From IMG/VR virus record IMGVR_UViG_3300022921_000075, positions 1 to 28,351 of that record: 28,351 nucleotides of DNA; one strand, given 5' to 3'. Both the position numbers and the translations under genes were made by a program. Positions 9,196 through 28,216 of this stretch are shown one piece after another. The first letter of the stretch is position 1; every line of letters starts with the position of its first letter. The DNA is from a virus. The notes under the pieces were generated by a model. It ran no database searches. It had not been told where the DNA came from and saw only the letters and a program-made list of their open reading frames with translations.

Positions 9196-9239
9196 TCAGT
9201 CGCCCACCCCCATCCCTTAAAAATGTCAAAAATATGCTG

Positions 9240-9247
9240 TAACTTTG
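9240..9247 (+). promoter_or_regulatory. Promoter -7 element (TAACTTTG) of a candidate small RNA
   Basis: TAACTTTG matches TAnnTTTG exactly, 45 bp after the stop of the winged-helix-like gene. No clear -33 TTG is present at the usual distance. Transcription would begin near 9252 and reach a terminator at 9378-9402. Confidence 0.5.
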
Positions 9248-9251
9248 CTAT

Positions 9252-9402
9252 ACTGCTAAACGTATGTGAGTCGGAACATCAGTAGTCACTCAAAAGGTCA
9301 GCGTCGACCACACGACGCAAACGACCAACCCGACAACAACCACACTTGAATTCGCCCTAACTACGCTCAACTCTATCGCACGCATTCTCGCGTGCTTTTT
9401 TA
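9252..9402 (+). ncRNA. Candidate structured small RNA, about 150 nt
   Basis: A promoter box and a textbook terminator frame about 150 nt with no usable open reading frame (its only early ATG is followed at once by TGA). Two further stems are visible: TGAGT 9267-9271 with ACTCA 9288-9292, and a perfect 6-bp hairpin GCGTCG-ACCACA-CGACGC at 9301-9318. An unpaired A/C-rich stretch (about 9319-9365, low in G) follows and could act as a target-binding region or ribosome decoy. The start point is estimated from the promoter box. The target is unknown. Confidence 0.6.
9378..9401 (+). terminator. Rho-independent terminator
   Basis: A perfect 6-bp stem (GCACGC, loop ATTCTC, GCGTGC) is followed at once by six T. 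It would end the candidate small RNA and also any read-through from the winged-helix-like gene. Confidence 0.85.
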
Positions 9403-9900
9403 TTGCCCATATATGTGTTCACTTTTGAAAAGTAACACAATCCCCCACATTTCCCCACCACCCTCCTAAAAACGCTAATTACCACCCCAAAAGTGGTAAA
9501 AATGGTGTGTTATACGTGGGTATGGGATTCTATACGGCCCCAACGTTCGCGCGCGTGACCCGAAACGGATTCCCAAACCCCACACCCCGATGCGTGTTCA
9601 AACATTCAAAATAGTTTTGGCTTTTTGGTTTGATGTTTAAACATCTATACCCCCTCCCCCCGATTTTGTCGGCATCAATACCCCCCACCTTTTGTCCCGT
9701 TTTTGTTCAGTTTCCCGAAGGTGCGGAACTCTCCCCTCCCCTGTTTTCCCCTTGTTTTCTTGGCCTTTGTCCCCCTGTTGTGGGCTTGTAATCTCATCAG
9801 TTTGCCCCCATTTGGGTGATGAAATACCCCTGATTTTGCCGTGTTTCTTGGTGTTCCCATTGCCGATTTGTGTGCATAACTCCGGGCTAAATATGCCTGT
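9403..9900. other. Gene-free pyrimidine-rich tract with hairpins and G-quadruplex potential
   Basis: No credible protein gene. The plus strand is very rich in C and T, with C runs at 9650-9654, 9656-9661, 9681-9686, 9733-9736, 9738-9741, 9748-9751 and 9771-9775, so the minus strand can form G-quadruplexes. Short hairpins are present: ACTTTTGAAAAGT (9421-9433), TTACCAC with a 7-nt loop and GTGGTAA (9479-9499), and CCGA/TCGG (9660-9672). A 14-bp palindrome lies at 9632-9645. The role could be an origin, a packaging site or a transcription barrier. None is demonstrated. Confidence 0.5.
9632..9645. promoter_or_regulatory. Palindromic operator candidate, copy 1
   Basis: A perfect 14-bp palindrome (GATGTTTAAACATC). 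With its flanks it is nearly repeated at 10223-10234: both copies are preceded by TTTGGTTT and followed by CTAT. Two such sites in a gene-free region suggest a dimeric DNA-binding protein, possibly the product of the nearby regulator gene at 8740. Confidence 0.5.
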
Positions 9901-9924
9901 TTAGACCTGTTGCCGGGCTGGGCT

Positions 9925-9939
9925 GGTGTCGTCCAGTAA
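9925..9939 (+). repeat. 15-bp direct repeat, copy 1
   Basis: GGTGTCGTCCAGTAA occurs here and, identically, at 10488-10502. Both copies lie in the gene-free region, 563 bp apart. Confidence 0.8.
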
Positions 9940-9960
9940 GACGGAAAAGGCCGTTACTGG
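9933..9960 (+). other. Long hairpin with overlapping alternative stem
   Basis: CCAGTA (9933-9938) pairs with TACTGG (9955-9960) and ACGG (9941-9944) with CCGT (9951-9954), leaving an AG bulge and an AAAAGG loop. The same CCAG can instead pair with CTGG at 9923-9926 around a TGTCGT loop. A separate hairpin TGCTC/GAGCA follows at 9971-9987. The 15-nt start of this element (9925-9939) recurs exactly at 10488-10502 without the downstream arm. Confidence 0.5.
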
Positions 9961-10018
9961 AACGGGGTTTTGCTCTCCAGTTGAGCAGTTAGCCTCCGAC
10001 AGGCCTCGACAAAACCTG

Positions 10019-10043
10019 ATTAAGTGTCCTGTTGACATTTAAT
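10019..10043. repeat. Paired inverted repeat, copy 1
   Basis: ATTAAGTGT, a 7-nt spacer (CCTGTTG), then ACATTTAAT: nine pairs with one G-T. The same arms with another 7-nt spacer recur at 10144-10168, 125 bp away. Conserved arms with a changed centre suggest a binding site for a dimeric protein or a conserved RNA hairpin. Confidence 0.6.
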
Positions 10044-10143
10044 TTTAATGCGGGTTTCCGGTCGTCGCCGACGCCTTCGGCGTTCTCTGTATCTCAATGG
10101 TGGCGGGGGGTGCAGCGAAAGTTTCCTGAAATGAGGGGTGTTG

Positions 10144-10168
10144 ATTAAGTGTCTGACAAACATTTAAT
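10144..10168. repeat. Paired inverted repeat, copy 2
   Basis: Arms ATTAAGTGT and ACATTTAAT are identical to copy 1 at 10019-10043; the spacer here is CTGACAA. Both copies are preceded by TG. Confidence 0.6.
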
Positions 10169-10222
10169 GTGGCGCAAAGTGAGGCGGGGCGCGGGTTTGC
10201 TTTAAATGTCAATTTGGTTTCT

Positions 10223-10234
10223 ATGTTATAACAT
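10223..10234. promoter_or_regulatory. Palindromic operator candidate, copy 2
   Basis: Perfect 12-bp palindrome ATGTTATAACAT with the same flanks (TTTGGTTT before, CTAT after) as the palindrome at 9632-9645. The two differ in the central bases. Confidence 0.5.
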
Positions 10235-10281
10235 CTATTGAGTGTATCATTTGGGACGGCCTGATTGGCCTGATTTAGGGT

Positions 10282-10296
10282 GTGTACTTGGTACAC
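10282..10296. promoter_or_regulatory. Inverted repeat GTGTAC-TTG-GTACAC
   Basis: A perfect 6-bp inverted repeat with a 3-bp centre, of the size of a small repressor operator. No promoter box is seen next to it. Function is unknown. Confidence 0.35.
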
Positions 10297-10349
10297 TAAC
10301 TAAAAATGTTGAAAAAGTGACTGATTTTTTAATAACTCTCTACAACCCT

Positions 10350-10368
10350 GTGGTGGCGCGGGTTTCAG
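10350..10368 (+). repeat. 19-bp direct repeat, copy 1
   Basis: GTGGTGGCGCGGGTTTCAG occurs here and exactly at 10430-10448, an 80-bp period. Shorter relatives (GCGGGTTT) lie at about 10050 and 10190. The spacing and GC-rich nature differ from coding DNA nearby. Confidence 0.8.
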
Positions 10369-10429
10369 GAGATTAGGCCTATCGCTATCATTCCCCGGAA
10401 GTTATGATGACTGACCCTCCGCAAACGCA

Positions 10430-10448
10430 GTGGTGGCGCGGGTTTCAG
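10430..10448 (+). repeat. 19-bp direct repeat, copy 2
   Basis: Exact copy of 10350-10368, upstream of the promoter of the candidate large RNA. Confidence 0.8.
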
Positions 10449-10487
10449 AGCCTCCCTCGCGCGGGTAACAATTAGAGGGCTGATGAG

Positions 10488-10502
10488 GGTGTCGTCCAGT
10501 AA
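10488..10502 (+). repeat. 15-bp direct repeat, copy 2
   Basis: Exact copy of the element at 9925-9939. It lies 22 bp before the -33 element of the promoter of the candidate large RNA, directly before a run of eight T and eight G. Confidence 0.8.
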
Positions 10503-10523
10503 CGCACTTTTTTTTGGGGGGGG

Positions 10524-10554
10524 CTTGTTTATCCAAAAACTCTTTTTACATTTG
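10524..10554 (+). promoter_or_regulatory. Bacteroidota-type promoter of the candidate large RNA
   Basis: TTG at 10525-10527, a 19-bp spacer, then TACATTTG at 10547-10554, an exact -7 match. Initiation would fall near 10558-10561, where the first base-paired arm (TCGAACA) of the structured region begins. Eight T and eight G in a row lie just upstream (10508-10523). Confidence 0.65.
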
Positions 10555-10799
10555 AACCATCGAACAGGCCGAGAGGGGCGACAGCCCCCACATAAGAAGG
10601 CCGATGTTCGAACCCCCTCTCCGAGGAGTACGAGTTTCAAACTGCGGGGGGTGATGTTAAGAAGTTAGCATCGAGAGTGGTTGACCCGTAAAGTTGACAA
10701 GACACTCCATAGCGTAACACGCCGAGGTACACACCCCTCAACGCTTATAACTTCCACTCCTCCTTCGAATCAGTTATTTGGTGCGACGATGGCGGTGCC

Positions 10800-10823
10800 G
10801 GTACGGATACATTAGAATTCACG
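10800..10823 (+). repeat. 24-bp direct repeat displayed in a hairpin loop, copy 1
   Basis: An exact 24-bp sequence beginning GGTACGGATACA and ending GAATTCACG is found here and at 10895-10918. This copy lies in the loop of a helix formed by 10787-10796 and 10824-10832 (nine pairs with one bulged G). The loop contains the self-complementary GAATTC. Confidence 0.8.
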
Positions 10824-10894
10824 ACCGCATCGACATCAACGCCGACGATAGTAGGTTCCCTGACGGCCTCGGCCGAACGGACAGAGGCGTTTTA

Positions 10895-10918
10895 GGTACG
10901 GATACATTAGAATTCACG
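10895..10918 (+). repeat. 24-bp direct repeat displayed in a hairpin loop, copy 2
   Basis: Exact copy of 10800-10823. It too is enclosed by a helix, GCGTT 10887-10891 with AACGC 10924-10928, although the flanking sequence differs. The same loop is thus held by two different stems. Confidence 0.8.
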
Positions 10919-11097
10919 GCCACAACGCACAAATGTCATACGGGATACTGAACGGAAAAACGAAATACGCCCCTCGAGGCCTCGATTGGATGAGTGCTTA
11001 ATGAACCCCTAACGGATACCTTCATTGCGCCGGGCGGCCAAGGACGCCCATAGCAATCACCTCCGTCAATGGATAGTAGATTTTGACCCCTACCACA

Positions 11098-11145
11098 GGG
11101 TGAGCACAGGATTACGCCTGTCGCCGGTTCGTGACCGACTCACCC
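11098..11145 (+). ncRNA. Three-way-junction RNA element 1
   Basis: A closing 7-bp stem (GGGTGAG/CTCACCC) encloses two hairpins: ACAGG-ATTACG-CCTGT (11106-11121) and CGGT-TCGTG-ACCG (11125-11137), joined by CGC. The second hairpin and the linker are shared with the element at 16251-16293 (CGCCGGTTCGYGACCG), while the closing stem and first hairpin differ in sequence but keep pairing. It precedes the first small gene of the operon, in the place that ribozymes take elsewhere. Confidence 0.7.
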
Positions 11146-11422: not shown

Positions 11423-11767
11423 ATGAATTTTGTAGTGAAATTGAGTAGCAAGAAAACGAATAAAACTTGCAAGTTCATCTTCCGCCCCGCCGATGGTGTT
11501 AACCCCGAACAATTTATCAAGAGCGGTTCTTTCCGCTCTGATTATGATTGGAGAGTGTACGATAATCGCAAGGCCTTCCTGAATGATTTGTGGAAATTGG
11601 CTATCGAAGCCGGTAACCCTATCGAGTATGTCAAGGTGAATGAAAGATTGAATTGGGAGCGCACTTCCCTTTGGGACAAGACCCGCTTTCCAAACGCGGA
11701 AGAGTTTAACAATCACATCTTGGATGGCCGGTTGTTAGTAAAGGAATTGGTTCAGGTCAATTACTAA
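11423..11767 (+). CDS. Unknown protein, 114 aa
   Basis: A mixed alpha/beta protein starting MNFVVKLSSKKTNKTCKFIF, with aromatic and charged segments (DYDWRVYDNRKAFLNDLWKL and NWERTSLWDKTRF). No motif is recognised. It lies 18 bp after the 67-aa gene and is the last gene before the first hammerhead ribozyme, which begins three bases after its stop codon. After ribozyme cleavage its mRNA would end in the two ribozyme hairpins. Confidence 0.65.
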   Translation: MNFVVKLSSKKTNKTCKFIFRPADGVNPEQFIKSGSFRSDYDWRVYDNRKAFLNDLWKLAIEAGNPIEYVKVNERLNWERTSLWDKTRFPNAEEFNNHILDGRLLVKELVQVNY

Positions 11768-11770
11768 TCA

Positions 11771-11824
11771 GGTTCGCTGATGAGGATTTAATATCCGAAA
11801 CATCCCTTCGGGGATGTCCGAATC
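11771..11824 (+). ncRNA. Type I hammerhead ribozyme 1
   Basis: The 54 nt have every hammerhead part. Stem I is GGTTCG/CGAATC (one G-U). The core CTGATGA spans 11777-11783. Stem II is GGAT-TTAAT-ATCC, followed by GAA (11797-11799). Stem III is 7 bp closed by a C(UUCG)G tetraloop. The cleavage triplet is GUC at 11816-11818, so the cut falls between 11818 and 11819. Both ends lie in stem I (type I). It starts three bases after the stop of the 114-aa gene and ends 14 nt before the next start, so it would separate the two mRNAs. Confidence 0.92.
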
Positions 11825-13775: not shown

Positions 13776-13829
13776 GATTTGCTGACGAGCCTTCAGTAGG
13801 CGAAACACCCCTACGGGGGTGTCCAAATC
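13776..13829 (+). ncRNA. Type I hammerhead ribozyme 2
   Basis: A 54-nt hammerhead. Stem I is GATTTG/CAAATC (perfect). The core CTGACGA spans 13782-13788. Stem II is GCCT-TCAGT-AGGC, followed by GAA (13802-13804). Stem III is 7 bp with a C(UACG)G tetraloop, and the GUC triplet is at 13821-13823. The cut falls between 13823 and 13824. It has the same architecture and length as ribozyme 1 with all stems changed, that is, compensatory changes. It starts at the base after the upstream stop codon. Confidence 0.93.
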
Positions 13830-13874: not shown

Positions 13875-14258
13875 ATGGAGAATTTCTTCGCAACGAACGC
13901 AGAGTTGAGCGGCAAAATCAACAAGTTGAAGGCTATTCCTTTTCAACACGAGGTTGGTATCAAAGACGACAAGGGTCTCTACCTGTACAAGACCTTTGCC
14001 GACGCCTACAAATACAAGCCATACGCTGACGAGGCCTACGAGCCTTGGATGAGCGGAGTATGGATGGGTAAGCCCGGCACCGGAGCATACGCAATGATTG
14101 CACTTCATTGGGAGGATTTAGTGAAGGCCAAGCAATGGTTCTTGCACTACGAATTGGAGGCAATGAAAGGTAATGTTTGGTTTGTTGAGTACAACGCTCA
14201 AAAGGAATTCGGGCAGATGCCTACGGAGCGTAGTAAGGCACCGAATCCAAAGGTGTGA
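13875..14258 (+). CDS. Unknown aromatic-rich protein, 127 aa
   Basis: The protein is rich in Tyr and Trp (LYLYKTFADAYKYKPYADEA, then YEPWMSGVWMGKPGTGAYAM) and has a helical end (EDLVKAKQWFLHYELEAMKG). No family is recognised. It is the only gene between ribozymes 2 and 3, so cleavage at both would yield a monocistronic mRNA of about 490 nt with the conserved leader hairpin at its 5' end. A separately processed message suggests a need for independent dosage. Confidence 0.65.
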   Translation: MENFFATNAELSGKINKLKAIPFQHEVGIKDDKGLYLYKTFADAYKYKPYADEAYEPWMSGVWMGKPGTGAYAMIALHWEDLVKAKQWFLHYELEAMKGNVWFVEYNAQKEFGQMPTERSKAPNPKV

Positions 14259-14267
14259 TAGCGAACA

Positions 14268-14321
14268 GGCTTACTGATGAGGATTGATTATCCGAAACGC
14301 CCCGGTTGGGGCGTATAAGTC
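14268..14321 (+). ncRNA. Type I hammerhead ribozyme 3
   Basis: A 54-nt hammerhead. Stem I is GGCTTA/TAAGTC (one G-U). The core CTGATGA spans 14274-14280. Stem II is GGAT-TGATT-ATCC, followed by GAA (14294-14296). Stem III is 7 bp with a GGTT loop. The cleavage triplet is GUA at 14313-14315, still within the NUH rule, so the cut falls between 14315 and 14316. It starts nine bases after the upstream stop. It is slightly less canonical than the other two because of GUA and the non-UNCG loop. Confidence 0.9.
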
Positions 14322-17132: not shown

Positions 17133-17351
17133 ATGATGATAGCGGAAAAAACACAATTGTTCACCTTTGCTGACAATTTCGGTGGGGCTTATACGCCGAA
17201 GAAACTTCGCTACGAAGGTGAGGGCAGTAGCCTCCCTTCAAAAGACCAAATAAATGCTTGGGTACGGGCGGATGGTGCAGATGGATATATCATCCGCCGC
17301 ATTGACAAGTATGATGATTGGGATGATGAATATGTAAATCCTTTTATTTAA
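17133..17351 (+). CDS. Unknown acidic protein, 72 aa
   Basis: Starts MMIAEKTQLFTFADNFGGAY two bases after the previous stop (a second ATG follows at 17136). It has an acidic C-terminus (RRIDKYDDWDDEYVNPFI). The form, two strands then a helix containing DQINAWVRADG, is common among small phage proteins. Function unknown. Confidence 0.6.
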   Translation: MMIAEKTQLFTFADNFGGAYTPKKLRYEGEGSSLPSKDQINAWVRADGADGYIIRRIDKYDDWDDEYVNPFI

Positions 17352-19280: not shown

Positions 19281-19756
19281 TGAACAATTTAGCATCATTG
19301 ATAACTATCGGTATGTTGACGATAGTTAGCCCTATTGAAAGCGATGTCTCCACAACTATTGATGTGGGGCTTGTTAAGCCTTTCAAAAGAAAGCCATCTC
19401 GAAAAGACACATTAGGCACTCTTATGAATGCGCAGATTCAAGTAGAAAGCACCGGAAATCCGAATGCTCACAACAAGAAAGAAGATGCGGTAGGTGTGCT
19501 TCAAATCCGACCTATTATGGTCAGGGAAATAAATCGTCAACTTAAATTAGCGGGGGATGATAGTGTATTTAACCTTGACGATAGGTGGTCTGAATCCAAA
19601 TCAAAAGAAATGTGGTGGACTTTTGTGAATTTATCTCATAAAAATCATTCACCCGAGCGCATAGCAAGATGTTGGAATGGTGGGGGCAATGGTCACAAAA
19701 AACAATCAACAAAAAAATACTGGAATAAAGTAAAATCAATAATGTATGCAAAATAA
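19280..19756 (+). CDS. Lytic transglycosylase (SLT-type lysozyme fold), 158 aa
   Basis: A peptidoglycan-cleaving enzyme. The catalytic Glu is probably Glu56 in AQIQVESTGNPNA, followed by AVGVLQIRP (about 70-78) and CWNGGGNG (about 130-137), the three motifs of SLT-domain transglycosylases (ES-GN, GxxQ, and N-GG). A hydrophobic N-terminal stretch (SLITIGMLTIVS, residues 6-17) could serve as a signal or membrane anchor, so export may not need a holin. It is the probable endolysin. Its place in the early arm, beside ThyX and away from the virion operon, is unusual. The ThyX gene overlaps its end by 11 bases. Confidence 0.85.
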   Translation: MNNLASLITIGMLTIVSPIESDVSTTIDVGLVKPFKRKPSRKDTLGTLMNAQIQVESTGNPNAHNKKEDAVGVLQIRPIMVREINRQLKLAGDDSVFNLDDRWSESKSKEMWWTFVNLSHKNHSPERIARCWNGGGNGHKKQSTKKYWNKVKSIMYAK

Positions 19757-20366
19757 AGTAGAACTTTTAGGCTATTACGGGAGTGACAAAGTAATTGCCC
19801 AGTCCGCGTGGACATCAACATCAAGGGATTTGACAGACGACAAGGTCAGTAGAATCCCCGCGTTGATTAATATGCTATGGAGCAATGGACACGAAACTCC
19901 ATTTGAGAAGGCATCAGTACACTTTCTTGTAACCACTGATATTGCTACGCACATCCACCTGCTTAAGCACAGGATGTCATCACTTAACGCTGAATCAGCG
20001 CGATACAAGGAACTTAAAGATGATAAGTTCTATATCCCAATCGACTGGGACTTGGATAGCCAAGAACAATTAATTCAGTTTTCCGAACTATCCAACAAGT
20101 TGTATCACGAGCACATTGAAAAACTTACTCCATCACTCGGTAGAAAGAGAGCCAAAGAATCAGCAAGATTCTTTAAGACATACAATTCTCAAATCACCGC
20201 AGATGTTATGTTCAATATGCGCTCATTCGCAAATTTCTTAAATTTACGCGCATCGGAACACGCTCAAGTAGAAGTTAGGGAATTGGCTATTGATATGCTA
20301 AAACTCGTTCAAAAAATTGAGGGAAATCCATTTAAAGAAACCCTAATTAATATTTACAATGAGTAG
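19746..20366 (+). CDS. thyX: Flavin-dependent thymidylate synthase ThyX, 206 aa
   Basis: ThyX makes dTMP from dUMP with methylenetetrahydrofolate, NAD(P)H and FAD, feeding phage DNA synthesis. The signature appears at residues 74-87 as KHRMSSLNAESARY, close to the RHRxxSxNExSxRY consensus, with Lys for the first Arg and Ala for the first Glu position. GHETPFEKASVHF (48-60) is the other typical ThyX segment. The length is typical. The start overlaps the transglycosylase gene by 11 bases, and the next gene overlaps its end by eight. Confidence 0.93.
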   Translation: MQNKVELLGYYGSDKVIAQSAWTSTSRDLTDDKVSRIPALINMLWSNGHETPFEKASVHFLVTTDIATHIHLLKHRMSSLNAESARYKELKDDKFYIPIDWDLDSQEQLIQFSELSNKLYHEHIEKLTPSLGRKRAKESARFFKTYNSQITADVMFNMRSFANFLNLRASEHAQVEVRELAIDMLKLVQKIEGNPFKETLINIYNE

Positions 20367-20778
20367 TTATGCAATCATAATTAAGAAAGAAGGAGATAGA
20401 TACTTTTCGTACATAAAAAAAGTCAGTTCAAAACAAAACCCATTGTTTGACGCTCTTGATGAAATACGAATGGGCGAACGATTTTCCGCACACGAAATAT
20501 CGAGCAACCTGGAAGCGATATATTGCCCTGATGCGTCTGACTATGTTGACGATATGGTGACCCTTACGGATGCCGACGGAGAGGTTTTAGGCCAATTTTG
20601 TGGCGACATAGTTGTAATCGGCAAAAAAAATAGCGGGGACAGGAGCCGGTCTCAATCCATTGGACTTGAACTACATAGAGCGCAAGACATCCTTATGTCT
20701 CTTCATATAGACGGAAAGCCTGCGGTTCCAACTCCGGTTAGAGATAATTGGATTTCACGAAGGGGTGTTGATAACTAA
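20359..20778 (+). CDS. Unknown protein, 139 aa
   Basis: Starts MSSYAIIIKKEGDRYFSYIK and has an acidic middle (DASDYVDDMVTLTDADGEVL) and a basic Ser/Arg segment (KKNSGDRSRSQS). No family is recognised. It is coupled to thyX by overlap and ends the first transcription block before the operator-like region at 20822. Confidence 0.62.
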   Translation: MSSYAIIIKKEGDRYFSYIKKVSSKQNPLFDALDEIRMGERFSAHEISSNLEAIYCPDASDYVDDMVTLTDADGEVLGQFCGDIVVIGKKNSGDRSRSQSIGLELHRAQDILMSLHIDGKPAVPTPVRDNWISRRGVDN

Positions 20779-20821
20779 CGCCTAACTTTAATTGCCGAAC
20801 TTTGCCTATCGTGGTATATTA

Positions 20822-20890
20822 CTTCAGGTTCTACTTAAGTAGTAGTTACCTGAAGATACCTGAAGGTAACTACTTTACTAACTTAAGTAA
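20822..20890. promoter_or_regulatory. Complex operator-like cluster
   Basis: Dense symmetric elements: CTTCAGGT (20822-20829) opposite two direct ACCTGAAG boxes (20848-20855 and 20858-20865, ten bp apart), a perfect palindrome CTACTTAAGTAG (20831-20842), a perfect 10-bp inverted repeat AGTAGTTACC/GGTAACTACT (20841-20850/20865-20874), and a second ACTTAAGT (20881-20888). Ten-bp spacing places the boxes on one DNA face. It directly precedes a ribbon-helix-helix-like gene, so autoregulation is likely. RNA hairpins are an alternative reading. Confidence 0.65.
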
Positions 20891-20898
20891 CCTAAAGT

Positions 20899-21108
20899 AT
20901 GAAGAAGTACGAACTTCTAACTGACGAGAACGGCGAGCATCGCCTTGATATGCGATTCCGCCGCGATGAACTCAACGAAATACAAAAAGACCTTAACGAT
21001 GTTTATCCCGACTTCAATAAGTGGATGAGCAACTCTGTTAACAGGTTCTTTTTTAGGGAGATTGTAAATACTGCCCTGTCCCGATTAGACGAAGAACTGA
21101 AAAAATAA
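20899..21108 (+). CDS. Putative ribbon-helix-helix (Arc/CopG-like) regulator, 69 aa
   Basis: A short strand (HRLDMRFRRDE, about residues 14-24), then a helix (LNEIQKDLNDV), a turn (DFNKWM) and a second helix (SNSVNRFFFREIVNTALSRL) follow the ribbon-helix-helix order, where the strand pairs in a dimer and reads the major groove. The size suits a simple repressor. The start lies nine bases after the operator-like cluster, which contains repeated half-sites, so it probably regulates itself. The family call is by pattern only. Confidence 0.62.
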   Translation: MKKYELLTDENGEHRLDMRFRRDELNEIQKDLNDVYPDFNKWMSNSVNRFFFREIVNTALSRLDEELKK

Positions 21109-21195
21109 TTTGCATAAGTCAAATTTATTTTGTATGTTCGCGCTCCTTTTGGGAAAGTTCTTTGACTTATCGAATTAAATTAAATCAAAACGGAA

Positions 21196-21264
21196 GTTAC
21201 TGCCGTTCTATTCAGTAACGAAAATCCAATCTACATATGTCTAACTTTATTTCAAAAGTTACTG
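21196..21264 (+). promoter_or_regulatory. Alternative-hairpin leader of the ERF gene
   Basis: GTTACTG occurs at 21196-21202 and again at 21258-21264, within an exact 13-nt repeat (AAGTTACTGCCGT). CAGTAAC at 21213-21219 can pair with either. The first pairing leaves the ERF start codon (21237) free; the second encloses it in a loop. This could be a translational switch. It is seen as sequence only, and 7-bp stems are of modest strength. Confidence 0.45.
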
Positions 21265-21806
21265 CCGTACAACAGGCCCTTAAGGCCCCGAAGTCGCAGT
21301 ACAACTCATTCGGTAAATACTCTTATCGAAACCAAGAAGATATCCTCGAAGCAGTTAAACCATTACTTGCCGCAAACGGGCTTGTACTGACCATTAGTGA
21401 TAGTGTAGAGGAACTTGTTGGCGTAGCAATCATTACTGCTACGGCAACACTAACCGACGGCGATGAGTCGGTATCAGTTACCGCTCAGGCCGGAGTAGAC
21501 CTTAACCGAAAGGGTATGGATATCGCTCAATCATTTGGAGCATCATCCTCTTATGCTCGCAAGTATGCGCTAAATGGTCTATTCCTAATTGACGACACAA
21601 AAGATGCCGATGCTACAAATACGCACGGAAAACCCGCCCCCGCCGAGAAGGTAGCGGCAAAATCTTCACCCGAAGACACATTCAGTCAGGCTGTGGAATA
21701 CATCAAGCAGTCAAGCAATGCGGCTACCGCAGTAGGCTTGGTACTGAATAAGTACGGCTCCACGTTTAGCGATAAGCAAATCGCGGCAATCAAGAAGTTC
21801 GCCTAA
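21237..21806 (+). CDS. ERF-family single-strand annealing protein, 189 aa
   Basis: ERF proteins anneal complementary single strands in phage recombination and replication. The N-terminal two thirds show the family pattern: KSQYNSFGKYSYRNQEDILE (about 19-38), AVKPLLAANGLVLTISD (39-55), and the GMDIAQSFGASSSYARKYAL segment (about 93-112) followed by NGLFLIDDTKDAD. A Lys/Ala/Pro linker leads to a C-terminal helix with NAATAVGLVLNKYGS. The stop overlaps the start of the exonuclease by one base, the usual annealing-protein/exonuclease pair. Confidence 0.88.
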   Translation: MSNFISKVTAVQQALKAPKSQYNSFGKYSYRNQEDILEAVKPLLAANGLVLTISDSVEELVGVAIITATATLTDGDESVSVTAQAGVDLNRKGMDIAQSFGASSSYARKYALNGLFLIDDTKDADATNTHGKPAPAEKVAAKSSPEDTFSQAVEYIKQSSNAATAVGLVLNKYGSTFSDKQIAAIKKFA

Positions 21807-22630
21807 TGGAGTTTGCGAGTAAGTTGCTGGAGGCGACAGGTAAAGGATACCTGTCGTACTCTGCAATTAAATACGCCGCAGATGATTCTAAAAGCCAAGA
21901 TATGAAACTCTTTGAGTTGTATATGAAGGGTTTGTTAAGGAAAGAATCAGATGCGCTTACATTCGGAAGTTTGTATGATGCTATGCTACTTGAACCAAAT
22001 TCGGTAAACGACAAGTTCACAGTAATCAACGATTCCGAGTTTGTAGAAGGCATATCCGCTGATTACAAATCTCCACGCTCTACAAAAGTCTATAAAGAAT
22101 GGCTTGATGGAGAGACAAAGGTTGCCCTTGAATCCGGGAAGAAAATAATCTCTATGGATGACTGGAATACCGCAAAGGATATGATAAATCGATTGGACAA
22201 TAGTGAGATTATTGACCACGAAACAGGTGAGGTAACATCAGTTCGATATTACCTAACGGGGACTCCCCAATACGAGATTAACTCTTGGATTGGAGAAATA
22301 CCCGTACGCGGATTCCTTGACTGCTACTCCCCCGAAAATGGATTTATTTCGGACTCTAAATCCACGCGGTCAATACACGGATTCCGATACGATGTAGGCA
22401 ATTTTTGTTACGACATACAGGCCTACATCTATACGCAAGTTATGGGAACAAATGAATTTTACTGGGTTGTTCAGGAAAAATCATCCCCATACCTGTGCGG
22501 TGTGTATCGAGCATCAGAGCGTTCTCTTCAGTCCGGAGAGCGCAAGTTTTGGAGCGCGATAGCGAATATTAATAATTGGCTAAACAACGGCAATCGAACT
22601 GATTCGTTTGCTTTGTCGGGCGAAATTTAA
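21806..22630 (+). CDS. RecE-like PD-(D/E)XK exonuclease, 274 aa
   Basis: Probable 5'-3' exonuclease that resects ends for the ERF protein. The active-site pattern is in the middle: RGFLDCYSPENGFISDSKST (about residues 171-190), with Asp in GFLD and D-x-K in SDSK, then YDIQAYIY (about 206-213), with the Gln of RecB-like nucleases. A VVQEKSSPYLCGVYRAS segment follows. The length suits the DUF3799/RecE type. It starts on the last base of the ERF gene. Confidence 0.82.
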   Translation: MEFASKLLEATGKGYLSYSAIKYAADDSKSQDMKLFELYMKGLLRKESDALTFGSLYDAMLLEPNSVNDKFTVINDSEFVEGISADYKSPRSTKVYKEWLDGETKVALESGKKIISMDDWNTAKDMINRLDNSEIIDHETGEVTSVRYYLTGTPQYEINSWIGEIPVRGFLDCYSPENGFISDSKSTRSIHGFRYDVGNFCYDIQAYIYTQVMGTNEFYWVVQEKSSPYLCGVYRASERSLQSGERKFWSAIANINNWLNNGNRTDSFALSGEI

Positions 22631-22634
22631 TCAA

Positions 22635-23003
22635 ATGAGTTTAGTATCTAAATTTGTTACTTGGCTTTTCCCAAGTAAGCAGAAAGGATTGTCTTCGGTA
22701 GCGCAAGCATTCATAGCCGCGGAGAGGGGACTGGGATTAGACTTACGCAACTCTTCAAGTAGATATGTTGTTGAGAACAGACAACTCGTTGTCAACATAA
22801 TTATGCTTGGACGCAACATTACTCCTACTCAACTGCATAGAGAGTTATCTTCAGCAGGAATAGAAGGTGTTGGCTTAAGTCGTCGCAGTTTGTCGCTCTA
22901 TAAAAATAGGCACGATGAATACCTATCAAAGAAATCCGATGATGCTGTTCGTTACATTTGGAAGTATCGTCACATAGCAGAATTAATCAATCAATCACTT
23001 TAA
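22635..23003 (+). CDS. Unknown protein with weak DnaA-domain-IV resemblance, 122 aa
   Basis: The ATG at 22635 (MSLVSKFVTWLFPSKQKGLS) follows the exonuclease gene by four bases. The middle (SSSRYVVENRQLVVNIIMLG, then THxL-like helices and RRSLSLYKNRHDEYL) runs parallel to the DnaA domain IV order R-x-x-R-x-x-V-x-x-R-Q-(8)-helix-turn-helix, and to the stronger candidate at 25120. If right, it binds specific DNA, perhaps an origin. The resemblance is slight. Confidence 0.55.
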   Translation: MSLVSKFVTWLFPSKQKGLSSVAQAFIAAERGLGLDLRNSSSRYVVENRQLVVNIIMLGRNITPTQLHRELSSAGIEGVGLSRRSLSLYKNRHDEYLSKKSDDAVRYIWKYRHIAELINQSL

Positions 23004-23018
23004 TCTAAATCTAAAATT

Positions 23019-23285
23019 ATGTCTGATAAAATTTATGTAGGACGAGTTGAAACAAAGGAAGGCAAATATGGAGAACTTATTTCAGTCTCCCTCGGGCCAC
23101 AAGACTTTGAAAAATTAGAAGCCGCCAAAAACCAACGAGGTTGGGTTAATCTAAATTGGAAACAGTCCAAGGACGGAGGGTATTATATGGAGGTCTATCA
23201 AAATGCATCATCCGCAGGAGGCTCAAAGGTAAATGAAACCAAACAAGCCTTCACTCAAAGTCAATCAAACGACTTGCCATTTTAA
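23019..23285 (+). CDS. Single-stranded-DNA-binding-like protein, 88 aa
   Basis: A small beta-rich protein (KIYVGRVETKEGKYGELISV, GWVNLNWKQSKDGGYYMEVY) with a flexible Ser/Gln/Asn tail ending in SNDLPF. That end closely matches the SSB C-terminal tip (DDDLPF or DDDIPF), which recruits replication and repair partners. Its place beside the ERF/exonuclease pair supports a ssDNA-binding role. The body is shorter than a full SSB, so it may be a reduced OB fold. Confidence 0.65.
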   Translation: MSDKIYVGRVETKEGKYGELISVSLGPQDFEKLEAAKNQRGWVNLNWKQSKDGGYYMEVYQNASSAGGSKVNETKQAFTQSQSNDLPF

Positions 23286-23675
23286 TTGAGGTATAGTCAG
23301 TTCACCCCGGCATTTGCTATGGGTGAAGCGATGAGGAAAGGAGCCGACTCTTTTGAGTCGGACTCCACCTCTTTCGCAATTATAAAGGGAAAGCATAAGA
23401 TATCATATTCGTATGGATGCTTTGACCTATCAGAGGAAATAACCTGCTCAGAGTTAGACCTAACACGCGATTGCGTGTTTCTATTGTTCCCTGATAAACC
23501 AAATAGCAACATACTTATTTTAACCACTAAATACATTCGGTCGATAGCACCGGATGGTATTTTGCGACTTCGAGAAATAGACAAGAACCAAATACTTTAT
23601 AGCGACCGATATGAAATCCAAACAAGGAAAGATGATTTACTTGATGCAAGTTTCAATAGCGTATCTAAAAAATAA
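23286..23675 (+). CDS. Unknown protein, 129 aa (TTG start) or 118 aa
   Basis: The frame opens at a TTG directly after the previous stop (peptide LRYSQFTPAFAMGEAMRKGA, with the first residue read as Met). The first ATG is at 23319 (MGEAMRKGADSFESDSTSFA) and is the safer start. Beta strands dominate (HKISYSYGCFDLSEEITCSE, VFLLFPDKPNSNILILTTKY), with two Cys. No family is recognised. The end overlaps the following gene. Confidence 0.6.
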   Translation: MRYSQFTPAFAMGEAMRKGADSFESDSTSFAIIKGKHKISYSYGCFDLSEEITCSELDLTRDCVFLLFPDKPNSNILILTTKYIRSIAPDGILRLREIDKNQILYSDRYEIQTRKDDLLDASFNSVSKK

Positions 23676-23880
23676 GCAATGGAATACATCTGTTAGAGAA
23701 CTTGTTAGCGTACTTGATACGCCTGAAGAAATATTCAATAGCGAATTCGCTAGAAACTACTTAAAGTCACAAGTTGTTAATCGCTCAAGTGCCGCTTTTA
23801 AAGTACCCAATAACTTTAGGGTGTTAAAAGTTTTAGACAAAAAGCAAATCTCCCGCTCATTTTTTTATATGGAAGACTGA
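23611..23880 (+). CDS. Unknown basic protein, 89 aa
   Basis: Several starts are possible: 23611, 23632 (MIYLMQVSIAYLKNKQWNTS) or 23644. The longest overlaps the previous gene by 65 bases and the second by 44, both in another frame. The product is basic and helical (VRELVSVLDTPEEIFNSEFA, RSSAAFKVPNNFRVLKVLDK). No family is recognised. Confidence 0.55.
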   Translation: MKSKQGKMIYLMQVSIAYLKNKQWNTSVRELVSVLDTPEEIFNSEFARNYLKSQVVNRSSAAFKVPNNFRVLKVLDKKQISRSFFYMED

Positions 23881-23882
23881 AT

Positions 23883-24035
23883 ATGAAAAGAATGACAATA
23901 GCAGAGAAAGCCATCTTTATGAAAAGGTGGCACGGAGATACAGCACTAATCCAAGCAAGGCAATGCTTGGCTTTCAATGACTTTTCCGAATACTGGACGA
24001 AGGTAGTAGATGTTCTAGAAAAAAAACAATTATAA
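23883..24035 (+). CDS. Unknown small basic protein, 50 aa
   Basis: MKRMTIAEKAIFMKRWHGDT leads into helices (ALIQARQCLAFNDFSEYWTK), with Lys/Arg and Trp residues. It begins two bases after the previous stop and ends one base before the next start. No family is recognised; size and charge would suit a nucleic-acid-binding peptide. Confidence 0.5.
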   Translation: MKRMTIAEKAIFMKRWHGDTALIQARQCLAFNDFSEYWTKVVDVLEKKQL

Positions 24036-24036
24036 G

Positions 24037-24378
24037 ATGGGCATAACTGAAACACAGGAGTCAATCAATCGCATTATGAAATCAACACGCGACCTCCTAA
24101 TCCAAAAGAACAGGCAGTACGGCGATAGTGCCTTAAATCCAATTGGAGTATTTGGAACAACCGATGCAGTTGTTAACCTTGGTGCCAGGATGGACGATAA
24201 ATTAATGCGCCTTCGGGGACAGGGAATTGGTGCTCAGAGCGTCGACACTCTCTATGACCTTCAGGGATATATCGCACTTCTTATAATTGCAATTGAGCGA
24301 AGAGAAGGTATCGTTAGCACCGATATGGTTGTTATGGATGAATCAAACACCAAAGAAATTATAAGCAATGGAAAATAA
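24037..24378 (+). CDS. DUF1599-like protein, 113 aa
   Basis: The segment LIQKNRQYGDSALNPIGVFG followed by ARMDDKLMRL (about 51-60) and DTLYDLQGYIALLIIAIE (about 70-87) resembles the DUF1599 family, also called nucleotide modification associated domain 1. This is a small helical family related in style to MazG-type nucleotide hydrolases, with acidic residues (DDK, D-x-x-GY) suited to metal binding. A role in the phage nucleotide pool is inferred. It lies in the replication block. Confidence 0.65.
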   Translation: MGITETQESINRIMKSTRDLLIQKNRQYGDSALNPIGVFGTTDAVVNLGARMDDKLMRLRGQGIGAQSVDTLYDLQGYIALLIIAIERREGIVSTDMVVMDESNTKEIISNGK

Positions 24379-24619
24379 AACTAGATGCCGTAAGTGCGCC
24401 AAATGCGCAGAAGTAAAAAAGCAAACCGACGCCCTATTGCTTGATGCTTCAAAGATATTTGCTAATGAGGGCAAGACAAGTACCGCTGAAGAGATGCGGT
24501 TAGCATATAAAAAAGAATTAGAAATACTTTTAGAGGTTAAGCGACTAGACCCCGAATTAGGAGCAATTATTTTACCATATGAAGCTAACACTGAAGGACT
24601 TACAGAGATTTCTAACTGA
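24368..24619 (+). CDS. Unknown protein with CxxCxxC, 83 aa
   Basis: Begins MENKTRCRKCAKCAEVKKQT with Cys7, Cys10 and Cys13, a possible metal-binding knuckle lacking a clear fourth ligand, followed by a long acidic helix (STAEEMRLAYKKELEILLEV). It overlaps the previous gene by 11 bases and the sigma-like gene by 41. No family is recognised. Confidence 0.58.
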   Translation: MENKTRCRKCAKCAEVKKQTDALLLDASKIFANEGKTSTAEEMRLAYKKELEILLEVKRLDPELGAIILPYEANTEGLTEISN

Positions 24620-25247
24620 GGATACATTTTATCATTTCGTAGCAAGGAAACACGGATGCTTTATTAAAAACGAAGACGACCTATCGGAAGTTCGATGCAA
24701 GGCAATCCTTGGTGTTATGCGAAGATATAATGAAGAATATGAATTCGAAGATGAAAAACACCTCTACTCATCGGTTGAATTAACCGTTTGGAACGCCATT
24801 CGCACTATGCTAAAAAGTCATTCTCTAAATAAGAATAACTTACCAATTGATTCAGAGTGCACCCTGCTAAGGGGTGATGGCGAGGAGACTTGGTCAATTT
24901 ATGAATTAAATGCAATAGCAGACATAAAAGAATATGACAACACCATAGAGTGGCTTATGTCTTCTGCTCAGAATAGTCTAGACCCAATTCAAATGCACGT
25001 TTTTGAAAGAACTCTTCAGGGACTTACCGCAACCGAAATTGCGGAGGAGTTTCAATGGAGCACTCAAAATGTTCATACACGTCTAAAGACAATTGTTAAA
25101 ATTTTAAAAAAATTAAAAGATGCTGAAGAAAGAGAGATTCAATTTACTGTGCCAAGAGTATCAAAAGATATCAAGCGTAAACCCGCTAGAACGTACACGG
25201 CGTCACACTCACGTCGTAGCGAGGCAAGTGATTTCCTTAATTCTTAA
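24579..25247 (+). CDS. Sigma-factor-like protein, 222 aa
   Basis: The first part (DDLSEVRCKAILGVMRRYNE and LYSSVELTVWNAIRTML, about 34-80) has the spacing of ECF sigma region 2. The region DPIQMHVFERTLQGLTATEI with AEEFQWSTQNVHTRLKTIVK (about 133-172) is a region-4 helix-turn-helix. It would redirect host RNA polymerase to phage promoters. The basic tail overlaps the next gene by 128 bases in another frame. The start at 24579 overlaps the previous gene by 41 bases, and the next in-frame ATG is too far in. Confidence 0.75.
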   Translation: MKLTLKDLQRFLTEDTFYHFVARKHGCFIKNEDDLSEVRCKAILGVMRRYNEEYEFEDEKHLYSSVELTVWNAIRTMLKSHSLNKNNLPIDSECTLLRGDGEETWSIYELNAIADIKEYDNTIEWLMSSAQNSLDPIQMHVFERTLQGLTATEIAEEFQWSTQNVHTRLKTIVKILKKLKDAEEREIQFTVPRVSKDIKRKPARTYTASHSRRSEASDFLNS

Positions 25248-25539
25248 AAAGAAAATTCGACTATCTGAATATTCAATCGCTATCCTAATCAATCAGGACC
25301 GAAGCAACGTCTATCACAACATAGAGACCGCAAAAATAGAGATTGACCGCGGCAAAATTGAATACATTGAATCTCTTGAATATTGGAAGCAGGCATTGTC
25401 GTCGGTCCCACTAGAGGGCGCAATTGACTTTGCTTTTTCCCTTAAGAAAATTATTGATTCAAAAATTGAAGAAAATAAGATGACAAATCAAGAGGCAATT
25501 CAAATCTTAAGAGAAGAGTTAAACTATCGCCTAAAATGA
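25120..25539 (+). CDS. DnaA-domain-IV-like DNA-binding protein, 139 aa
   Basis: Residues about 25-70 (RTRRHTHVVARQVISLILKK, then SEYSIAILINQDRSNVYHNI) follow DnaA domain IV closely: R-x-R-x-x-x-V-x-A-R-Q, a hydrophobic helix, then a helix-turn-helix where DRSNVYHNIETAK stands for the RDHTTVLHA signature. It could bind a phage or host origin. The start at 25120 lies inside the sigma-like gene. No later ATG retains the domain, so a 128-base overlap is real. It ends overlapping the primase-helicase start by four bases. Confidence 0.7.
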   Translation: MLKKERFNLLCQEYQKISSVNPLERTRRHTHVVARQVISLILKKKIRLSEYSIAILINQDRSNVYHNIETAKIEIDRGKIEYIESLEYWKQALSSVPLEGAIDFAFSLKKIIDSKIEENKMTNQEAIQILREELNYRLK

Positions 25540-27395
25540 ACGACCCAATCGTAACTATGTTCAAATCAGTATTCGATACTGAAAACCCACACTTTGTTCC
25601 GCTAAGCGTTGCCCTTGACAGGATTAAGACCGGAAAGAACGCCGACACAATCGAGCAAGTAAGGGCGGGAGATAAGCGTAGAAAAAACGATTTGCCTGTT
25701 GTTTTGTTTTCCGGAAAGTTTAACAGACGCGCTGATGTTGACCTTGTCGAGCACAATGGTCTTATTATTTGTGACTTCGACCACGTTGACGTTGATAAGA
25801 CAAAGCAGTCATTGTTAAATGACGACGTTGTTATTGCCTGTTGGACATCCCCGTCGGGAGACGGAGTAAAGGCTCTAGTTAATGTAGAAAACCCAGGGAA
25901 GCACAAGGAGCATTTTTCTGCTATGATTGAACACTTCCGGGATGTTCATCAACTTGAATTAGACCCATCGGGTAGAAACATTAGCAGAGCGTGCTATGAG
26001 TCATATGACCCTGACATTATCGTAAAGACGGCTTCTGAAAAGTTTTCACCAGTAAATATTGATGAGCGAGTAGAACTTCCTGAACCAAAGCAAGTCCAAA
26101 GCGGGGTCCAGGTTGACTACACAAAACTTCAAGTTGCTGCGAATATGATTCGCAATGCGCGAGATGGCGAAAAACACAACACACTTATTAGGGCCGCTCG
26201 GCTTATGGGTGGGTATATCGGAAGTGGTATACTTGACGAGGCTCAGGTATTGCAGGTTCTTGAGGCGGAAATCAAGAAGCGTGATATAGATAGTTTAGAC
26301 CTTGCGATGAAGACCATTATGGACGGCATAAGTCAAGGAAAACTACTGCCAATCACAGAGATTGATGCCGAGTATTACGAAGAGCGGAGAAAGGTTGAGT
26401 TGGCCGATACAGAAAACCTAAGTTACCTTTCAGACGAAGATGAGGATTTATCTGAAATTATGAAGATAAAAAGAGGAGAGGTTGAATTGGGCTTAAAGAC
26501 TGGTCACGATGATATTGATAAATATTTTCGATACAAGCGTGGAAGTTTTGTAATTGTAAATGGTCATTCTTCAGTTGGTAAAACAACGCTAGTTCTACAC
26601 CTTATGATTAATGCGTCAATACGACACGGGTGGAAGTGGTTTGTTTATTCTTCTGAATCGAAGACATCAACAATCAAGACTCGTATGATTGAGTATGCAT
26701 CTCAAATGCTTCTACAGGATATGAATGAACATCAAATAATCCACTACTACAAGTGGGTTAATGAGCACTTTAGTTTCTTATCAAATAAGAGAAACTATTC
26801 ATATGTAGACGTGCTTCTGTACGCAGAGAAAGAGATGGCTCGCAGGCAATTTGACGCCCTGTTTGTAGACCCGTACAATTCATTAGTTATGGAGAAGAAT
26901 GGCTCTTCAGGATTTAACGCGCACCACTATAACTACGAGGCCGCGTCCGCAATGCTAACGTTTTGTCAGTCTACGGGGGTTAGCCTTTGGTTAAACACCC
27001 ACGCCAATACGGCCGCTCAACGCAAGAAGGGCGACGATGGGCACTCGGTTGCTCCATATGCGGAGGACAGCGAAGGCGGCTCGCTCTTCCTTAATCGTTG
27101 TGATATTTTCTTAACGTTTCATAGAAAGATTCAGCACGAGAACGAATCAACCCGTAGAACTATGGAGATGCACATTAGAAAGGTTAGAGAGCAAGAGTCT
27201 GGCGGTAGACCAACCGCTTCAGATAATCCAATTCGTTTTGAAATGAATTCAGATTCAACCGCGTTTTTTGTAAACGGAGGGAAGAGGTTTTTCAATAGTG
27301 TTAATGATACAAAAACTGCAGAACAAAAGCAAACATCATTTCAAGTAGAGCCAACTGAATTTAAAGACATAAAAGAGTTAGAAGATATTTTTTAA
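25536..27395 (+). CDS. Primase-helicase (BT4734/VirE-type primase and RecA-like helicase), 619 aa
   Basis: The N-terminal part (about 15-165) fits the BT4734-like archaeo-eukaryotic primase domain of Bacteroidota: DLPVVLFSGKF (52-62), GLIICDFDHVD with Asp80 and Asp82 as likely metal ligands, SPSGDGVKALV (105-115) and RNISRACYESYDPD. A linker domain (about 210-270) precedes a DnaB-like helicase with Walker A GHSSVGKT (343-350), Walker B in DALFVDPYNS and a WLNTHANT segment. It would prime and unwind phage DNA. The ATG overlaps the upstream stop (ATGA). No DNA polymerase is in the window. Confidence 0.88.
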   Translation: MNDPIVTMFKSVFDTENPHFVPLSVALDRIKTGKNADTIEQVRAGDKRRKNDLPVVLFSGKFNRRADVDLVEHNGLIICDFDHVDVDKTKQSLLNDDVVIACWTSPSGDGVKALVNVENPGKHKEHFSAMIEHFRDVHQLELDPSGRNISRACYESYDPDIIVKTASEKFSPVNIDERVELPEPKQVQSGVQVDYTKLQVAANMIRNARDGEKHNTLIRAARLMGGYIGSGILDEAQVLQVLEAEIKKRDIDSLDLAMKTIMDGISQGKLLPITEIDAEYYEERRKVELADTENLSYLSDEDEDLSEIMKIKRGEVELGLKTGHDDIDKYFRYKRGSFVIVNGHSSVGKTTLVLHLMINASIRHGWKWFVYSSESKTSTIKTRMIEYASQMLLQDMNEHQIIHYYKWVNEHFSFLSNKRNYSYVDVLLYAEKEMARRQFDALFVDPYNSLVMEKNGSSGFNAHHYNYEAASAMLTFCQSTGVSLWLNTHANTAAQRKKGDDGHSVAPYAEDSEGGSLFLNRCDIFLTFHRKIQHENESTRRTMEMHIRKVREQESGGRPTASDNPIRFEMNSDSTAFFVNGGKRFFNSVNDTKTAEQKQTSFQVEPTEFKDIKELEDIF

Positions 27396-27415
27396 CACTA
27401 CGTTGTTTAATTGAA

Positions 27416-27895
27416 TTGTTTTCGCAACTTTATAGAGTGAAACGGAAACCCACAAAAAGCCGGAATACCGGCGCGGTAAAGAGTAAGAAGGTTAAAGTTG
27501 ATGGAATCAACTTTGCCTCTTCTCTTGAAGCATATTGTTATTCTGAACTTAAGAATGTTGGGATTTCGTTTGAATATGAAGGAGAGTCTTTTGTTGTCTT
27601 GGATTCGTTCAGGTATAATGGAAATTATTATAAGTCTACAGCGGGTAAAAAAGAGATGGTAAACAATGGAGGCAAAATGGTTAGAGCAATAACCTACACT
27701 CCCGATTTTGTTTCACACAAGAATAAATTTATAATTGAAACCAAAGGGTTTGTCCCAAGTAACCACTCTTTCCCGCTGAGATTTAAGATGTTCCTAAAAT
27801 TATTAAGCGACAATAATATGGGAGATTATTCAGTATATTTGCCTAAGAACCGAGCACAGGTTGATGAGGCTATTAAAAAGATTTTAAATGAATAG
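27416..27895 (+). CDS. DUF1064-like PD-(D/E)XK endonuclease, 159 aa (TTG) or 152 aa (GTG)
   Basis: Residues VDGINFASSLEAYCYSELKN (Glu before an AxxYxxL helix), YTPDFV and FIIETKGF give the E-D-ExK pattern of the DUF1064/endonuclease-like group, proposed to act as a junction or repair nuclease. There is no ATG near the front. TTG at 27416 (read MFSQLYRVKRKP) or GTG at 27437 (MKRKPTKSRNTG) must be the start; the GTG gives a more usual basic N-terminus and leaves a 41-bp leader. The end overlaps the next gene by eight bases. Confidence 0.78.
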   Translation: MFSQLYRVKRKPTKSRNTGAVKSKKVKVDGINFASSLEAYCYSELKNVGISFEYEGESFVVLDSFRYNGNYYKSTAGKKEMVNNGGKMVRAITYTPDFVSHKNKFIIETKGFVPSNHSFPLRFKMFLKLLSDNNMGDYSVYLPKNRAQVDEAIKKILNE

Positions 27896-28140: not shown

Positions 28141-28213
28141 GCCCCCGTAGCATAATGGATAGTGCAACGCACTTCTAATGCGTAGGCTACAGGTTCGAGT
28201 CCTGTCGGGGGTA
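28141..28213 (+). tRNA. tRNA-Arg (anticodon UCU)
   Basis: A full 73-nt cloverleaf: acceptor GCCCCCG/CGGGGGT (first pair G-U), D arm with GCAT/GTGC and a loop containing GG, anticodon stem ACGCA/TGCGT with loop CTTCTAA, 5-nt variable region AGGCT, T arm ACAGG/CCTGT with loop TTCGAGT, and discriminator A. CCA is not encoded. It reads AGA (and AGG) arginine codons, which are common in the AT-rich genes around it. Confidence 0.96.
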
Positions 28214-28216
28214 CGA

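Follow-up and report, generated by a model that had tools for sequence, protein, structure and literature searches.

The virus record analysed here, 28,351 bases in its whole length and referred to as the window, carries three complete hammerheads on the plus strand, as located by a descriptor scan (Table 1). It is likely that all three are active, cis-cleaving type I ribozymes that cut a rightward polycistronic phage transcript between its genes. The motif, its covariation and its position can be read from the sequences directly, and from these we infer the cleavage and its use. The three complete motifs share one transcription unit.

Table 1. Hammerheads, neighbouring open reading frames and tRNA gene in the window
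Feature	Position	Strand	Description
Hammerhead 1	11771-11824	+	type I, GUC; predicted cut 11818/11819; hold-out model 62.5 bits
Hammerhead 1 stem I	11771-11776 with 11819-11824	+	GGUUCG/CGAAUC, 6 bp, one G-U
Hammerhead 1 core	11777-11783 and 11797-11799	+	CUGAUGA and GAA
Hammerhead 1 stem II	11784-11796	+	4 bp, UUAAU loop
Hammerhead 1 stem III	11800-11817	+	ACAUCCC-UUCG-GGGAUGU
Hammerhead 2	13776-13829	+	type I, GUC; core 13782-13788; predicted cut 13823/13824; hold-out model 61.6 bits
Hammerhead 3	14268-14321	+	type I, GUA; core 14274-14280; predicted cut 14315/14316; hold-out model 62.4 bits
ORF, 114 aa	11423-11767	+	function not assigned; stop TAA 11765-11767, 3 nt 5' of hammerhead 1; no PHROG match
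ORF, 34 aa	11839-11943	+	hydrophobic; start codon 20 nt 3' of hammerhead 1 cut
ORF, 88 aa	13509-13775	+	function not assigned; stop TAA 13773-13775 abuts hammerhead 2
ORF, 127 aa	13875-14258	+	function not assigned; between hammerheads 2 and 3; stop TGA 14256-14258, 9 nt from hammerhead 3; no PHROG or Pfam match
ORF, 80 aa	14347-14589	+	start codon 31 nt 3' of hammerhead 3 cut
tRNA-Arg (TCT)	28141-28214

In all three hammerheads stem I is 6 bp long, the stem II hairpin 13 nt and the stem III hairpin 18 nt, and the helix sequences differ. Stem I is open and stems II and III are closed by hairpins, which is the type I topology. The residues C3 U4 G5 A6 N7 G8 A9, G12 A13 A14, the A15.1-U16.1 pair and H17 are all present in each of the three copies. 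Hammerhead 1 (11771-11824, plus strand) reads GGUUCG CUGAUGA GGAUUUAAUAUCC GAA ACAUCCCUUCGGGGAUGU C/CGAAUC, where the slash marks the predicted cut, which follows from the position of C17 at 11818. A sequence-only reading of the window had described a hammerhead at this place with a full core, three stems, a GUC triplet, a UUCG-capped stem III and the same predicted cut, and every one of these elements is found. The distance it gives from the preceding stop codon, three bases, is exactly right. At this place that reading listed one ribozyme; three are present in the window. In the wider context, an energy model without tertiary contacts favours alternative folds over the plain hammerhead alone by 0.6 to 3.3 kcal/mol, and these predicted folds break stem I in hammerheads 1 and 2. 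At 11767-11781 of the window, AUCAG-GUUCG-CUGAU can pair into a hairpin that would mask the core of hammerhead 1, and in context the folding program gives it a slight preference. It was considered as a feature of the family and rejected, because it requires a C before AG and only 29 of the 136 non-redundant relatives have one.

The general models in Rfam do not recover these ribozymes. An Infernal search with the type I model had been named by the sequence-only reading as a check, a low score being one half of what would refute it, and this half came out against the reading, with a score under the Rfam threshold and no Rfam hammerhead family at E ≤ 1 over the whole window. When a 301-nt piece of the window was searched, the only hammerhead listed was RAGATH-1-hammerhead (RF03152), whose 23.2 bits do not reach the cut-off of 56.3, and Hammerhead_1 (RF00163) was not listed even at E ≤ 10. 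The relatives behave in the same way: the best RF00163 scores are 27.4 and 27.1 bits, short of the 34 required, the matches to HH9 (RF02275) are weak (19.5 and 17.3 bits against 52), and none of the 38 relatives that the descriptor scan found in 12 loci reaches a gathering threshold. The low score therefore reflects how poorly the Rfam models fit this lineage, and Rfam 15 overlooks a common phage ribozyme. Since Rfam misses the lineage, a covariance model of its own was built. It finds only the three window hammerheads, at 69.5, 68.1 and 67.8 bits, with the next match at 10.6. A hold-out model made from 24 relatives, with no window sequence included, likewise finds exactly hammerheads 1-3, with an E-value of 5.8e-13 for hammerhead 1 and the next match at 10.7 bits.

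Scores under the Rfam threshold are also what a chance or inactive look-alike of a hammerhead would give, and short core strings do arise by chance: on their own they match 6 times where 1.9 matches are expected, which is weak evidence. The full motif is another matter. With the descriptor it was matched 109 times in 471 kb (the window plus relatives) and not once in five Markov-shuffled sets, and it is not a product of chance. Together with the covariation, the hold-out model and the conserved gene position, the empty shuffles make a look-alike extremely unlikely.

The relatives are numerous and uniform. In IMG/VR, the exact pattern matched 51 stretches and a looser one gave at least 120 matches; with all loci pooled, the pattern scans of IMG/VR yielded at least 257 distinct motifs in at least 155 loci. 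The scans favoured intact cores, as 205 of the 257 motifs match the bait patterns and 52 do not. Among the 257 motifs listed, stem I is 6 bp in 243 and stem II is 13 nt in 237, while the last base of the cut triplet is C in 245 and A in 12, the absence of G at H17 being imposed by the search pattern itself. An alignment of 27 diverse sequences has 99.8% of its cells paired, and compensatory changes with both sides altered are seen in 14 of the 16 pairs. The covariation is 0.949 compared with 0.183 in shuffles, and sliding the partners by one column lowers the pairing to 32-37%. When the same helices were required, 239 intact cores were counted in 1.56 Mb and none with any of 27 single substitutions, in a sequence set whose retrieval favoured intact cores. 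Core decay as a mark of pseudo-ribozymes was considered and set aside, since one-substitution cores are absent from the 1.56 Mb. At the level of sequence, the relatives settle the identity of 11771-11824 as a hammerhead, and its type I topology, GUC triplet and predicted cut site are all borne out by the anatomy, the covariation, the absence of core mutants and the hold-out model.

Could cleavage be secondary, with the elements acting chiefly as spacers for recombination or duplication through which accessory genes are shuffled? The adjoining genes are unrelated, and in a close relative (L016, 1915-1975, minus strand) the stem III of hammerhead 1 has exactly the sequence of that in hammerhead 2, pointing to conversion among the copies with the fold kept. 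However, almost all pairs are kept by compensatory changes and core mutants were not found, and such upkeep with intact cores is more than a pure DNA spacer needs. A spacer as the main role is very unlikely. The lineage also has variants. A second design with a stem II of 17-18 nt and other stem I sequences, for example AAUACU/AGUAUA (L037) and AAACCU/AGGUUA (L136), occurs in some phages (L037:9798-9862, L103 and L136) and sometimes adjoins the standard design. Two outliers on the minus strand, L023:3098 and L011:1395, have a 20-nt stem II and a stem III of about 60 nt, which is large enough for a sensor or a protein site.

The standard design has a conserved signature outside the catalytic core. 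In the stereotype, stem I has 6 bp and is bordered by A on one side and AA on the other, and the 4 bp of stem II are capped by a UNANU loop. The unpaired base 5' of stem I is A in 133 of 136 non-redundant members and A occupies the two positions 3' of stem I in 131 and 128 of them; the fixed U, A and U of loop II (U-N-A-N-U) are found in 134, 126 and 120. In natural hammerheads, the contact between stem I and loop II is made at such unpaired positions. As the signature is located at the same site, a tertiary contact is the natural reading, and the flanking A and AA together with the UNANU loop probably make a contact that would give fast cleavage at cellular magnesium.

The position of the ribozymes relative to genes is as regular as their structure. 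The 5' edge of the ribozyme lies no more than 12 nt from the end of an ORF of at least 60 aa in 169 of 235 cases in the sense direction, compared with 11 in antisense and 9 at random sites, and in the relatives listed the next ATG is mostly 20-30 nt 3' of the cut. For window hammerheads 1, 2 and 3 the stop-to-ribozyme distances are 3, 0 and 9 nt and the cut-to-start distances are 20, 51 and 31 nt. Copies within one locus have a median spacing of 508 nt, and 42 of the 43 phage records searched have 1 to 7 copies. A tie to one gene family was sought with PHROGs and Pfam on 91 neighbouring proteins and was rejected, as the matches are scattered over 28 PHROG families and most proteins have none. 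Since the neighbours are highly diverse, it is the position that is conserved and not a gene partner. An intrinsic terminator was ruled out, because no U-tail of the terminator type was found at the ribozymes and there was no terminator-like call there.

These observations point to co-transcriptional processing of polycistronic mRNA as the most likely function. The cut would be made between two genes in nascent or finished polycistronic RNA. The upstream mRNA would keep its whole ORF and end in the ribozyme body with the GC-rich stem III hairpin, and the 2',3'-cyclic phosphate and this strong hairpin could shield its 3' end. The downstream mRNA would have a 5'-hydroxyl and a short leader, consisting of the 6-nt stem I remnant and AA-rich sequence, before the start codon. 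In the window, the 127-aa ORF that lies between hammerheads 2 and 3 would end up alone on its RNA. The purpose is most likely to uncouple the stability and translation of adjacent small accessory genes. In Perreault 2011 (PMC3088659), comparable clusters of prophage hammerheads were shown to cleave in vitro and in E. coli, and processing of long phage transcripts or mRNA was proposed for them.

A role for the ribosome has also been considered, given that the stop codon of the upstream gene adjoins or falls inside stem I or the core. Terminating ribosomes would unfold the ribozyme, so that cleavage would occur only at low upstream translation or before ribosomes arrive. The stop codon does fall at four favoured places touching or within the ribozyme (TAA just before stem I, TA/G over the stem I edge, TAA within stem I, and C/TGA within the core), which cover 139 ORFs of at least 60 aa. 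However, the tight packing of phage genes would yield such overlap without regulation, and the stops in the window lie 0-9 nt 5' of the motif and never within it. Gating by ribosomes is unlikely, and its wider form, a widespread phage system in which the upstream stop lies in the ribozyme and ribosome traffic sets both the cutting of the message and the separate expression of the next gene, is if anything slightly less likely.

Another possibility is that the RNA segment lying between two ribozymes is circularised by re-ligation, for which its 5' end would pair with the 5' strand of stem I in the ribozyme at its 3' end. Hammerhead retrozymes are a precedent for such re-ligation. The stem I strands are fully compatible in 58 of 94 neighbouring pairs, compared with 19% between loci, and judged by their sequences those of window hammerheads 1 and 2 are compatible with one U-G pair. 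Most of this excess comes from identical stem I sequences (41 of 94), which duplication predicts as well, and window hammerheads 2 and 3 are incompatible. Circles were sought in the prophage clusters of Perreault 2011 (PMC3088659) and none were found. The formation of circles seems no more probable than the spacer role, and perhaps marginally less. Both circular RNA and ribosome gating are less supported than transcript processing.

The terminase of the window is closest to those of a spring-water podovirus and of Flavobacterium and Cellulophaga phages. The rightward genes at 19746-27892 include those for ThyX thymidylate synthase, ERF recombinase, a DUF3799 PDDEXK protein, a BT4734-like/DnaB helicase protein and a DUF1064 protein. 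Between leftward and rightward genes there are about 2 kb (9196-11140) with few long ORFs and with several imperfect direct repeats, such as 10791-10832/10886-10927 and 10344-10368/10424-10448. Among cultured phages, the ribozyme is carried by two Pelagivirus genomes, one Methylophilales phage and the four Elemovirus genomes that were tested. Each of these Elemovirus genomes has a single copy, and no ribozyme feature is present in the public annotation of the displayed regions of three of them. Elemovirus has Flavobacterium sp. BAL314 as its laboratory host, and in record NC_055852.1 the ribozyme is at 17286-17350 on the minus strand. The copies in Pelagibacter phages Eistla (two copies) and HTVC168P and in Methylophilales phage MEP301 are unannotated. 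In two Elemovirus genomes, reverse-strand hypothetical proteins are annotated over the ribozyme (QMP85382.1 and QMP84842.1, at L181:3962-4069 and L182:3962-4069, minus strand) and are probably false gene calls. Among 84,980 bacterial and archaeal species genomes there were 8 pattern matches; only that in Mucilaginibacter is strong under the model, and a match in a Patescibacteria MAG is weak. The Mucilaginibacter sp. SP1R1 match (L059:4580-4641) is a single chromosomal copy with 71.4 bits and does not sit at a clear gene junction. The recurrence of the design in well over a hundred phage sequences (at least 155 loci) and in cultured phages suggests that it is probably a widespread phage means of cutting long messages.

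Why phages and prophages retain intergenic hammerheads has, to our knowledge, been an open question since 2011. The lineage offers a large and uniform data set for it, with at least 257 distinct copies in a strict gene-junction position, and since cultured phages carry it, the question can be tested in laboratory infections. Hammerheads as a class are already known, and so is the idea that phage mRNA is processed. As far as the accessible literature shows, what is new is a stereotyped type I phage lineage that Rfam misses, its overlap with stop codons, the A/AA and UNANU signature, and the fact that cultured Flavobacterium, Pelagibacter and Methylophilales phages carry it. Searches of the open-licence literature for ribozymes of this sort in marine or tailed phages yielded no more than Perreault 2011 and related Weinberg work, and the 2011 supplements may list some of the present sequences.

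Compared with known families, the lineage shares the architecture of RF00163, with a CUGANGA/GAA core, a GUH triplet, closed stems II and III and an open stem I. It differs in scoring below the RF00163 cut-off, in its fixed 6-bp stem I with A and AA flanks and in its UNANU stem II loop. The contexts differ as well, RF00163 being found in repeats of animal genomes and the phage lineage between genes. RAGATH-1-hammerhead has a similar core and order of stems II and III and is the top Rfam match in the window, but it possesses an extra upstream hairpin and its cut-off is far from reached. HH9 has the hammerhead core in common and gives only weak matches in the relatives. In the prophage clusters of Perreault 2011 (PMC3088659), multiple ribozymes flank single genes or short blocks in a similar way. 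Those clusters comprise types I, II and III in the prophages of cultured bacteria, whereas here one stereotyped type I lineage is found in phage records, with stop codons touching or within the ribozyme and one strong chromosomal match.
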